A stretch of 64,000 bases of DNA, taken from positions 967,548-1,031,547 of the forward strand of contig NZ_KI911559.1 of NCBI RefSeq assembly GCF_000515255.1, given 5' to 3'. The stretch is from Rhodovibrio salinarum DSM 9154. Lineage in GTDB: Bacteria; Pseudomonadota; Alphaproteobacteria; Kiloniellales; Rhodovibrionaceae. Shown piece by piece: positions 10,744 through 44,029 of the stretch (positions are counted from its first letter, which is position 1; every line of letters starts with the position of its first letter). The notes beneath the pieces were generated by a model that saw only the letters and a program-made list of their open reading frames with translations, did not search any database and was not told the origin of the DNA. A program made the translations under genes and the position numbers.

Positions 10744-11424
10744 CTAGCTGGCGTTCTGGCTCAGCCGACGCGCGCCGAAACCGAGCGCCGCCAGGGCGAC
10801 TCCGAGCAGCGCGATGGACGGCGGAAGCGGAATGTCGGCGGTTTCCATGCTCAGTTGTGCGACCCGATAGCCATCACCGCTGCCGCCGGGCAGGCCGGCG
10901 ATGATGTAGCGGTAGGGCGTCGAACCGGGCAGGCCGACGTTCGTGATCTGCAGGGAGCCCGCGCCCGTTCCCGTGGCCAGCAGATCGCCGACCAGGCAAT
11001 CGGAGCCGGTGGTGCAGGAGGTGAAAACGCCGGTGTTGTTGCCATAGATGCGGTACTGGTCACCGTCGGTGAACAGACCGCCGTTGTTGGCGAGGCTCAG
11101 GTTGATCTCGACTGGCGTATGCACGCTGCCCAGATCGAAAATGATCGCCTCGTCGTCCCCGCCGTTATCGACCTGGTTGCTGTCACCGAAACCGAGATCC
11201 ACGCCAATCCCGAAGAGGTTGCGGCTCAGCGTCGGGTCGGGCGGCGGTTGGATATTGAGGGCTGTTGCCGTCAGGGAATGCGTGCCCGTGGTGTCGAGAA
11301 ACGTCTCGGACGGCCCGAGATTGCTGCTTGGTCCGTAGAAATTCCATGTAATAGCGGCGTAGGATACGCTTGGCCCCAATGCGACCGCTGCTAGGGCTAG
11401 CCCCGCCAAAACCCTATTGAACAT
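10744..11424 (-). CDS. PEP-CTERM sorting domain protein (VPLPA-type variant), secreted
   Basis: The 226-residue protein begins with a Sec signal peptide (MFNRVLAGLALAAVALGPSV followed by SYA, cleavage near residue 23). Its beta-rich body contains few lysines, many Asn/Gly/Asp and one cysteine pair (SCTTGSDC). It ends in a sorting signal, ADIPLPPSIALLGVALAALG then FGARRLSQNAS (about 196-226): a Pro-rich motif, hydrophobic helix and basic end. Such tails are recognised and cleaved by exosortases, placing the protein in the envelope or exopolysaccharide. The ATG at 11424 follows AGGAGAGG. A near-perfect sigma-54 promoter is at 11552-11567. No exosortase or EPS gene is nearby. A second substrate is at 43364. 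Confidence 0.82.
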   Translation of the reverse strand: MFNRVLAGLALAAVALGPSVSYAAITWNFYGPSSNLGPSETFLDTTGTHSLTATALNIQPPPDPTLSRNLFGIGVDLGFGDSNQVDNGGDDEAIIFDLGSVHTPVEINLSLANNGGLFTDGDQYRIYGNNTGVFTSCTTGSDCLVGDLLATGTGAGSLQITNVGLPGSTPYRYIIAGLPGGSGDGYRVAQLSMETADIPLPPSIALLGVALAALGFGARRLSQNAS

Positions 11425-11551
11425 AACGTCTGCCTCTCCTGCGAGATTGACACGAGAACCTGCTTTCCAAGGCACGCTCGGCGGGGTTGAAGCCGACCGA
11501 AACGGCCTTGAGCTTTGGGTGCCTTCGCGACCCCCCAATGGCGAGCGTTAA

Positions 11552-11567
11552 GCAATTTACGTACCAG
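11552..11567 (-). promoter_or_regulatory. Sigma-54 (-24/-12) promoter of the first PEP-CTERM gene
   Basis: Read on the minus strand the sequence is CTGGTACGTAAATTGC, then T. GG and GC are separated by exactly 10 nt and the flanks match the RpoN consensus YTGGCACGrNNNTTGCW except C to T in the -24 element. Predicted start about 11540, giving a leader of about 115 nt. The same class of element stands before the other PEP-CTERM gene at 43298. Confidence 0.75.
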
Positions 11568-12017
11568 CCGCCCTTCATCAGTCTGATCAAGGGGGTGCGA
11601 TCGGAACCGCAGGGTGTGTGTAAAACCTAGTGACAGATAGCCGCGCGTGCGTCCGGGCCGGCGTTACCAGCCTGAACAGGAAATACGTTTTTAAATCAGC
11701 GGCTTGGCTGGCATGTATGGCGAGGTTGCGATGGCCTGTGAGGTGTAAACGGATGTTACAGCCTGATGGGCGTGGTGGTGGGGGGCGGCGCATGCAGTCG
11801 TCATCGGAAAGCCAATGGGCGGTGAGGAGAGCCTTAAACGTTGCCCGGGATGGACGTGTGGTGAGGCCATACGTATGCCGGTCCTGCGCTGGAACGGCCG
11901 ATAGGCTTTCGCCGGGCGTCGGGTTGGCTTAGGGTTCGCGCGCGTGTCGGGCCGGTGGCGACGGGGCGGCCGGCGCGGCGTATGACGCTCACCCCTTCGG
12001 ACCCAAGGCGACCGGCG
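11568..12017. other. Divergent intergenic region between the PEP-CTERM gene and pgsA
   Basis: About 450 bp beyond the sigma-54 promoter. It contains an AT-rich patch at about 11680-11700 and the near-palindrome CCTGAACAGG at about 11674. Enhancer sites for a sigma-54 activator and the pgsA promoter would be expected here. No credible gene was seen. Confidence 0.4.
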
Positions 12018-12584
12018 ATGCTGCTGACCCTGCCGAACCTGCTGACGCTCTCGCGTATCCTGATCGTGCCGGTGCTTGTGGCGCTCTTGTTCTACCAAGG
12101 GCCTGAAGCCAGCTGGGCGGCGCTGGCCGTGTTTCTGGCAGCTTCGATCACCGATTGGGCGGACGGCTATTTCGCCCGCCAGCGCAAGACGGTGACGCCG
12201 CTGGGCCGTTTCCTCGACCCGATCGCCGACAAGTTCCTGGTCGCCGCGGTGATGATCATGCTGGTCGCGAGCGACCGTGTGACCGGCTTGCCGGTCGCTG
12301 CCGTGCTGTTGATCCTGTGTCGGGAGCTGCTGGTCTCCGGCCTGCGCGAGTACCTGGCGGAGCTGCGCGTCGGCATGCCGGTCTCCCAGCTCGCCAAGTG
12401 GAAAACGACGACGCAGATGATCGCCCTGTCGGTTTTGATCGTCGGCAACGCTGGACCGGGGTGGGCGCACCTGCAGCTGATCGGGGAAGTTTTCCTGTGG
12501 CTTGCGCTGGCGCTTACGCTGATCACCGGCTGGGATTACATGAAGCGTGGTTTGCAGCACATGCAGGCACAGCCGGAGCGCTGA
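12018..12584 (+). CDS. pgsA: CDP-diacylglycerol--glycerol-3-phosphate 3-phosphatidyltransferase
   Basis: The 188-residue membrane enzyme makes phosphatidylglycerol phosphate, committing CDP-diacylglycerol to phosphatidylglycerol and cardiolipin. The CDP-alcohol phosphotransferase motif is complete: Asp46, Asp49-Gly50, Ala53-Arg54, Gly63, Asp67 and Asp71 in DWADGYFARQRKTVTPLGRF then LDPIADK. The N-terminus LPNLLTLSRILIVPVLVALL is typical, and about five membrane helices follow. The ATG at 12018 fits the family's start best; an ATG at 11982 would add 12 residues. A mobB-like gene follows 91 bp downstream; pgsA-moaD-moaE neighbourhoods recur in alphaproteobacteria. Confidence 0.95.
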   Translation: MLLTLPNLLTLSRILIVPVLVALLFYQGPEASWAALAVFLAASITDWADGYFARQRKTVTPLGRFLDPIADKFLVAAVMIMLVASDRVTGLPVAAVLLILCRELLVSGLREYLAELRVGMPVSQLAKWKTTTQMIALSVLIVGNAGPGWAHLQLIGEVFLWLALALTLITGWDYMKRGLQHMQAQPER

Positions 12585-42970: not shown

Positions 42971-43297
42971 CGTCTCTCCACATGGCACGCGTCTGAAGTA
43001 GTGAAGCGCAAGATGACGCCATAGCGCTCACAAGGGCACGCCGCTTGGTTCTTCAGACACGCAGGCTCTGGGTTCCCAATGGATGGCGATCTGGGAGACC
43101 TAACTGGCCCTTTGATCAGGATCGTCCCGGTAGCAGATGGCTGACGGAGATCGTTGCTGCGCTCACGGCGCTTTTCCGAGCATCCACCGTCGCAGGATTT
43201 GACAGAATCTCCGGCCAGCCGTCCATACGCTGTCGGCCCGCTTTACATCGCTGCCGAAGGCGTTTGCGCATTCGTGTTGTTTCAATGGCTTGAATAG

Positions 43298-43313
43298 TTG
43301 GCACGAAGCTTGC
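43298..43313 (+). promoter_or_regulatory. Sigma-54 (-24/-12) promoter of the second PEP-CTERM gene
   Basis: TTGGCACGAAGCTTGC has GG and GC exactly 10 nt apart and matches the RpoN consensus YTGGCACGrNNNTTGCW at all defined positions of the core. Predicted start near 43325, about 40 nt before the ATG. The same class of element precedes the first PEP-CTERM gene. Confidence 0.82.
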
Positions 43314-43363
43314 GTGCAAGTTGGTATCAAGGGCTAGCGCCATGCAACGATGGAGAACACACA

Positions 43364-44029
43364 ATGTTTAAGCGGAAGACGTTGACGGGCGTGTTCGCGG
43401 CACTCGCGATCGGGGCTGTCATGTCAGTTCACGGGGAGGCAAAAGCTGGCCCCGTTATGAGCTTCAACCTGTCGAACGCTGTCGATCAGGAAGTGGTCTT
43501 TAGCCCCGGCGGTTCTTTCAGGTTCGAGGATGAGACGGGCGGGAACGACGACTTCCAGATCACTGGGCAGACCGGTGGTACGGGTGGATTGCTAGGCCTC
43601 TTTGGTGATTTGGACGGCACCTTCACTTTCGCTGATCCCGCTGGTGCGTCGTCTGTCGCCGTTGCGACTTCGGGGGGTGAATTTACCGTGAACGACGGCA
43701 CTGATGTCCTGACCGCGGACATGGTGATCTTCACCCTGGAAGAGTTGGGTGGTCCCTTCGGTGGGGTTCTCGGCGAAATCCTGTTCACGAGCACGACCTA
43801 CGCCGGCAGCAACGCCGACTTGCTCGATATCGCGAGCCGGATCGATAGCCCGCTCAGCATTTCCTTCCAGGTGGGCACGGGCGTGGAGTTGGATGATCTG
43901 TTCAACTCAGGTGGTAGCTTCAGCTACTCGGGTACGGTTATGCTGGTGCCGGTTCCCGCGACTGTGGCGATCTTCGGTCTAGGCCTGTTCGGCCTTGGCT
44001 TAGCCAGCCGGCGGTTTAGCAGAGCATAA
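43364..44029 (+). CDS. PEP-CTERM sorting domain protein, secreted
   Basis: The 221-residue protein begins with a signal peptide (MFKRKTLTGVFAALAIGAVM then SVHGEAKA, cut near residue 28). Its acidic, Gly- and Asp-rich beta-type body has no cysteine and almost no lysine after the leader (SPGGSFRFEDETGGNDDFQI, then TFTFADPAGASSVAVATSG). It ends VPVPATVAIFGLGLFGLGLA then SRRFSRA, a PEP-CTERM tail with Pro motif, hydrophobic helix and basic cluster. The ATG at 43364 lies behind TGGAGAA. A sigma-54 promoter is 50 bp upstream and a terminator follows at 44107, so it is a monocistronic surface protein. It shares tail and promoter class, but not body sequence, with the protein at 10744. Confidence 0.85.
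   Translation: MFKRKTLTGVFAALAIGAVMSVHGEAKAGPVMSFNLSNAVDQEVVFSPGGSFRFEDETGGNDDFQITGQTGGTGGLLGLFGDLDGTFTFADPAGASSVAVATSGGEFTVNDGTDVLTADMVIFTLEELGGPFGGVLGEILFTSTTYAGSNADLLDIASRIDSPLSISFQVGTGVELDDLFNSGGSFSYSGTVMLVPVPATVAIFGLGLFGLGLASRRFSRA

Follow-up and report, generated by a model that had tools for sequence, protein, structure and literature searches.

The text of Haft et al. 2006 (PMC1569441) describes a two-motif promoter class found before 99 of 167 proteobacterial PEP-CTERM genes: motif 1, 17 nt long and with TTTACA at its end, is separated by a spacer from motif 2, a sigma-54 element. The same paper assigns one PEP-CTERM gene to the alphaproteobacterium Rhodospirillum rubrum. The published spacer has a mean of 62.8 nt (SD 10.6, range 32–92), and the phylogenetic profile of the promoter motif is stated there to match those of PrsR, PrsK and PrsT. 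For pepA of Aquincola tertiaricarbonis, RpoN dependence was reported by RT-PCR and the transcription start by primer extension (PMC9850573). In Desulfovibrio, the regulator DVUA0057 is reported to have enriched in vitro the five PEP-CTERM targets predicted for it (PMC3333781), and its motif is elsewhere predicted to be common to another activator in that genus (PMC4641369). IHF between enhancer and promoter is described as a common sigma-54 layout in PMC7962754; the RNA-seq table of an IHF mutant in the same paper includes GSU1943, a Geobacter PEP-motif exosortase substrate, which is suggestive only.

Here, we analyzed a 64,000-nt stretch (the window) of Rhodovibrio salinarum DSM 9154, whose genome is a single contig of 4,176,524 bases. 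The window holds two genes with exosortase-type tails, about 32 kb apart, and both carry a sigma-54 element, TGGTACGTAAATTGCT and TGGCACGAAGCTTGCG (11/12 each), as the earlier note had stated from the sequence. That note recognized the first sigma-54 element but overlooked the PrsR box 52 nt upstream of it and the 2006 publication of the class.

The two promoters of the window and their genes

The following features were identified in the window.
10744–11424, minus strand: tail gene of 226 aa, from ATG 11424 to a stop at 10744, with tail IPLPPSIALLGVALAALGFGARR
11551–11566, minus strand: sigma-54 -24/-12 element TGGTACGTAAATTGCT, matching 11 of 12 defined positions
11587–11597, minus strand: IHF-consensus-like CAC-CCCC-TTGA (CACCCCCTTGA), matching 6/7 of YAAN4TTGA, 31 nt upstream of -24
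11619–11635, minus strand: proximal PrsR box (motif 1) TGTCACTAGGTTTTACA, 52 nt from the -24 element
11744–11760, minus strand: distal second PrsR-type box TGTAACATCCGTTTACA, farther upstream of the same gene
43231–43247, plus strand: PrsR box TGTCGGCCCGCTTTACA of the second tail gene, 51 nt from -24
43283–43293, plus strand: perfect YAAN4TTGA, CAATGGCTTGA, 16 nt (not 30–32 nt) upstream of -24
43299–43314, plus strand: sigma-54 element TGGCACGAAGCTTGCG of the second tail gene, 11/12
43364–44029, plus strand: second tail gene, 221 aa, ATG at 43364, with tail VPVPATVAIFGLGLFGLGLASRR

The sigma-54 consensus is TGGCACGN4TTGCW. On the minus strand, positions 11567–11552 read CTGGTACGTAAATTGC, and TGGTACGTAAATTGCT departs from the consensus at one of the 12 defined positions, in agreement with the single deviation noted earlier. 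The element lies in a 530-nt intergenic gap between the minus-strand gene at 11424–10744 and a divergent ORF at 11955–12584, and the distance from motif 2 to the ATG at 11424 is 126 nt. The GG-N10-GC geometry to which the earlier note had also pointed is present at the site but is uninformative alone, as the window contains 1378 such matches versus 1396 expected.

The 226-aa product exhibits a signal peptide by visual judgement and an exosortase-type tail, IPLPPSIALLGVALAALGFGARR, at its extreme C-terminus, where a proline motif, a hydrophobic stretch and a basic cluster can be recognized by eye. This tail scores 14.9 bits with Pfam PF07589 (PEP-CTERM), below the cut-off of 20.7 bits, and TIGR02595 is absent among the NCBIfam hits of the protein. 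It scores 39.8 bits under a model built from the genome's own tails, with IPLPPSIALLGVALAALGFGARR itself among the seven rows of that model. We read IPLPPSIALLGVALAALGFGARR from these features as a variant of the PEP-CTERM-type tail. Orthologues of the 226-aa gene were found neither among 37 relatives nor in the genome contigs collection.

Placement before tail genes across the genome

Sites resembling a sigma-54 promoter are not rare in this genome. When at most two mismatches to the consensus are allowed, the window has 13 sites versus 12.2 expected, and with up to one mismatch the whole genome contains 42 sites versus 44 for the reversed pattern. The bare GG-N10-GC scan and the two-mismatch scan, both at chance level, were dropped as evidence. 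Since a sigma-54-like site alone is not rare, the claim was tested by placement.

Tail genes were collected genome-wide by tail models and by promoter. A PF07589 search returned six tails with E < 0.03, two of them in the window. The own-tail model (A2, seven rows) returned eight places with E < 1e-6, the next match having an E-value of 0.14; these are the six PF07589 tails, a gene at 1447 kb that had been found earlier through its promoter, and a new gene at 3740 kb, which was afterwards seen to carry the promoter. A ninth, weaker tail at 870 kb was reached via the promoter alone. Nine tail genes were found in all, and the promoter search had led to two of them that were missed by the Pfam model (870 kb and 1447 kb).

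The 1447-kb gene (L030:1616-2605:+, genome position 1446963) encodes a choice-of-anchor A / ice-binding-like adhesive protein with tail VLGPGTLVLFGGGLLALGAVGRRR; it is absent from the PF07589 genome listing and was reached via the promoter only. The ORF L063:577-1476:- encodes a 299-aa protein whose tail, QPKNLYLIGSGLGLLVLILLRQ, is marginal and has another 27 residues after it. The ORF is preceded by a PrsR-type box and a sigma-54 site of 9/12, and NCBIfam and Pfam gave no matches to the protein at the cut-offs used.

All genes were scored by one rule, and 354 ORFs taken from the window and from 20 evenly spaced stretches of 20 kb served as controls; these ORFs were called by a simple script rather than a gene caller. 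An upstream site of at least 10/12 is found for 8/9 tail genes versus 7/354 control ORFs (Fisher 8e-12), and one of at least 11/12 for 6/9 versus 1/354 (Fisher 2e-10). When the two window genes and the two promoter-found genes are left out, five tail genes remain, which are situated outside the window and owe their detection solely to tail models; each of them has a site scoring 10/12 or more (p 1.6e-8). The exception among the nine is the 870-kb gene, with a 9/12 site and an atypical tail; the site at L001 reads TTGAA instead of TTGCW. From two genes, the earlier note had proposed a dispersed sigma-54 surface regulon and a genome-wide count against other genes as its check. This count, together with the five genes outside the window, supports the regulon, and the outcome that was to speak against it, other PEP-CTERM genes without the element, did not occur.

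The PrsR-type box sharpens this association. The exact box TGTC-N7-TTTACA, which is predicted to be the PrsR site of Haft et al. 2006 as described in the text of PMC1569441, occurs twice in the 64 kb, upstream of the two window tail genes. A site of at least 10/12 together with a box of at least 8/10 at 30–110 nt upstream is found for 7/9 tail genes versus 0/354 controls (Fisher 2e-13), and with loose cut-offs (site 9/12, box 7/10) for 9/9 versus 7/354. TTTACA lies no more than 160 nt upstream of six of the 42 one-mismatch sigma-54 sites, and each of these six sites stands before a tail gene. The pattern TTTACA-N35-96-TGGNAN7TGC occurs seven times in the genome (reversed control: 1); six matches stand before tail genes, and the seventh, at 164973, lies inside long ORFs on both strands. 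Some of the elements are degenerate: the box reads CTTACA for the genes at 3740 kb and 3978 kb, and for the 3429-kb gene the automatic rule gives a best box of 7/10. Nevertheless, a -24/-12-type site and a PrsR-type box are both present upstream of 9/9 tail genes, so that, as far as can be read from the genome, the promoter class appears to stand before every exosortase-type tail gene found in it.

The -24/-12 matches might instead reflect chance in a GC-rich genome, as the pattern alone is no commoner than in controls. This explanation is very improbable, given the placement relative to the 354 control ORFs (p 8e-12) and the position of the combined pattern before tail genes in 6/7 cases. The signal of the sigma-54 sites is their placement, not their frequency.

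Perfect 12/12 sigma-54 sites are found at genome positions 2884366 (L014) and 3854947 (L019). By eye, the genes behind them are a flagellin and a nitrogenase iron protein gene, respectively, and neither site has a TTTACA box within 160 nt.

PrsR exceeds its cut-off in 14 of 61 genomes of the order. Matches to the loose combined pattern are found in 12 of these 14, but also in 30 of the 47 genomes without PrsR over the cut-off; with two PrsR genomes lacking a match and 30 others having one, the loose pattern alone is no marker of PrsR genomes. In AT-richer genomes its matches are largely background.

Spacer phasing and an IHF-like third element

The distance between box and promoter was compared across the class. 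In 385 alphaproteobacterial genomes, TTTACA-N45-75-TGGYAYN5TTGC gives 143 hits in 78 genomes, and its reverse gives 23. Where a genome has at least three hits (13 genomes), the spacers fall at 49–52 (11 hits), 61–64 (51), 72–74 (6) and 59 (1), and none of these 69 hits, three of which come from the R. salinarum genome, has a spacer of 53–58 or 65–71 nt (Rayleigh R 0.81 at 10.5 nt). No phasing is seen in the 74 hits from genomes that have only one or two (R 0.16); these are therefore probably mostly chance matches, and they were left out of the spacing rule.

The surroundings of 112 pattern matches were read (loci L131–L240), some other hits lying at contig ends. A tail gene is found behind 42/70 in-phase matches versus 0/17 out-of-phase matches with a complete downstream ORF; for 25 further matches the ORF was missing or incomplete. 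The phase windows were fixed after the spacer distribution was known, although tail status played no part in this, and the tail rule matches 58 of 567 ORF segments in the same loci, true tails included.

In R. salinarum itself, the spacers are 50–52 nt in four genes, then 62, 73, 93, 95 and 106. These agree with the phase derived from the other genomes (p 7e-5 for a period of 10.5 nt, 0.002 for 11.5 nt), with a possible bias toward the fit, as the proximal box was taken where two exist and, in the case of the 3740-kb gene, a box at 73 nt was preferred to a stronger one far upstream. The 11.5-nt period, which is the best fit from the other genomes, fits the long spacers of this genome worse than 10.5 nt and was rejected. 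These distributions indicate that in Alphaproteobacteria the box-to-promoter spacer is quantized by helical turn, at about 51, 62 and 73 nt.

Most of the tail-gene promoters also carry a third element. The IHF consensus is WATCAAN4TTR, and its reverse complement is resembled by YAAN4TTGA, which is followed by AT-rich sequence. Among 46 tail promoters from 18 genomes (42 by the tail rule and four with tails accepted by eye), exact YAAN4TTGA is present in 23, every one starting 30–32 nt upstream of -24, compared with a mean of 0.7 and a maximum of 5 in shuffled spacers and 3/46 on the other strand. With one mismatch allowed, it is found within 29–33 nt in 37/46 promoters versus 0–3/46 in six other five-position windows. 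The element is present in 13/13 families, a count for which the family-level control was set aside, having covered four of the six other windows and omitted the two with 3 hits each. It also occurs in 16/39 in-phase matches without a recognized tail versus 0/24 out-of-phase matches. In the R. salinarum genome, it is in register (at least 6/7) in 3/9 tail promoters, with a fourth at 5/7, versus 1/72 other windows (p 0.004). Three-part promoters with the IHF-like element in register and spacers of 50 and 51 nt were also observed at L188 and L198 (G434 and G357), where they precede ORFs of more than 800 aa, cut by the fetched stretch, which are possible large PrsR targets.

As the element is in register in only three of the nine promoters here, a role for IHF can be proposed only indirectly. 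The element 30–32 nt upstream of -24 could instead be a second PrsR contact, an AT-rich UP-like polymerase contact or the site of another bending protein; it was identified solely by likeness to the IHF consensus, and 6/9 promoters here do not have it in register. This is possible but seems the weaker reading, given the strand specificity of YAAN4TTGA (23/46 versus 3/46), the AT-rich sequence after it, its presence in all 13 families, the encoded IHF-beta, and the common sigma-54 layout with IHF between enhancer and promoter (PMC7962754).

A likely general rule is a three-part alphaproteobacterial PEP-CTERM promoter in which a PrsR box, an IHF-type bend 30–32 nt upstream of -24 and a sigma-54 site are combined, and in which the box moves only by whole helical turns (about 51, 62 and 73 nt, and in R. 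salinarum also about 94 and 106 nt). Such a promoter would be specific enough to discover exosortase-tail genes missed by tail models. In the open-access literature, we found neither an earlier report of a third element linking PEP-CTERM promoters to IHF or integration host factor nor a printed account of spacer quantization by helical turn.

The predicted regulon and its closest relatives

The regulatory and sorting proteins expected for such promoters are encoded in the genome: RpoN (442 bits), PrsR (604), PrsK (432), PrsT (391) and exosortase A (XrtA, 290) each exceed their own cut-offs, and IHF-beta scores 145 bits. XrtA-type EPS genes are also encoded, with the ATPase slightly below its cut-off. 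A second exosortase (L062:9743-11251:-, at ~1.067 Mb) has XrtA as its best match, at 158 bits and below the 208-bit cut-off, and is unlinked to the XrtA/PrsT/PrsKR locus at 4.12–4.14 Mb.

Sigma-54-dependent promoters of this kind might be served by an activator other than PrsR. The genome encodes about five further proteins that contain a sigma-54 activator domain, binding of PrsR to the box is a prediction, and one motif is predicted for two activators in Desulfovibrio (PMC4641369). This seems unlikely, as the box matches motif 1, which according to the text of PMC1569441 has the same phylogenetic profile as PrsR, and as DVUA0057 is reported to have bound such targets in Desulfovibrio (PMC3333781).

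Thus, TGGTACGTAAATTGCT very probably serves as the RpoN promoter for a gene that belongs to a dispersed PrsK/PrsR regulon encoding exosortase-substrate surface proteins, and we expect expression in R. salinarum to depend on rpoN and prsR. In the proposed sequence of events, the sensor kinase PrsK would phosphorylate PrsR, which would bind the TGTC-N7-TTTACA box 52 nt upstream of the -24 element. The intervening DNA would bend, with IHF probably helping at the element 31 nt upstream of -24, allowing the AAA+ ring of PrsR to meet sigma-54 RNA polymerase at TGGTAC-N5-TTGC and the promoter to open. The product would then be secreted via its signal peptide, and its tail handled by exosortase A.

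What began as an impression from two genes becomes, if this model is correct, a genome-wide regulon of nine unlinked surface-type proteins under one switch whose main components can be named. A search for the promoter requires no knowledge of the protein, so it finds substrates with tails below the standard models. With the register of the IHF-like element fixed and the spacer stepping by helical turns, the geometry of the DNA loop in PrsR activation becomes open to direct tests, and IHF, which relates to growth phase and DNA architecture, may influence the timing of biofilm surface protein production.

The classical activator–IHF–sigma-54 promoters are those of nif and Pu. The order of elements is the same here, with an activator box, an IHF-like element and a -24/-12 site; the differences are that the activator would be PrsR and that its box is placed in helical steps, at a distance of about 51, 62 or 73 nt. 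With A. tertiaricarbonis pepA, the promoter shares a PEP-CTERM gene, a TGGCAC -24 element and an upstream enhancer sequence, whereas the organism and protein are different, and neither an IHF-like element nor a spacing rule is seen in the text of PMC9850573.

The closest match is the class of Haft et al. 2006. Compared with the text of PMC1569441 rather than the published logo (Figure 5), TGTCACTAGGTTTTACA agrees with a motif 1 ending in TTTACA. The 52-nt spacer of the 226-aa gene falls within the published 32–92 nt, motif 2 has the -24(GG)/-12(GC) form (11/12), and its distance of 126 nt to the start codon falls within the 23–221 nt described for the end of motif 2. The long upstream intergenic region and the sometimes repeated box are likewise shared, and PrsR, PrsK, PrsT and EpsH (here XrtA) are all encoded. 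With every testable feature in agreement, we assign the promoter of the 226-aa gene, on sequence grounds, as a true member of this class. A term search of the text of PMC1569441 returned IHF nowhere and helical in a reference title only. The R. salinarum promoters differ from the published description in spacers of up to 106 nt, compared with 32–92 nt, and the quantized spacer and third, IHF-like element now seen across the class, with the binding and bending that they suggest, add new detail to a promoter class already known since 2006.
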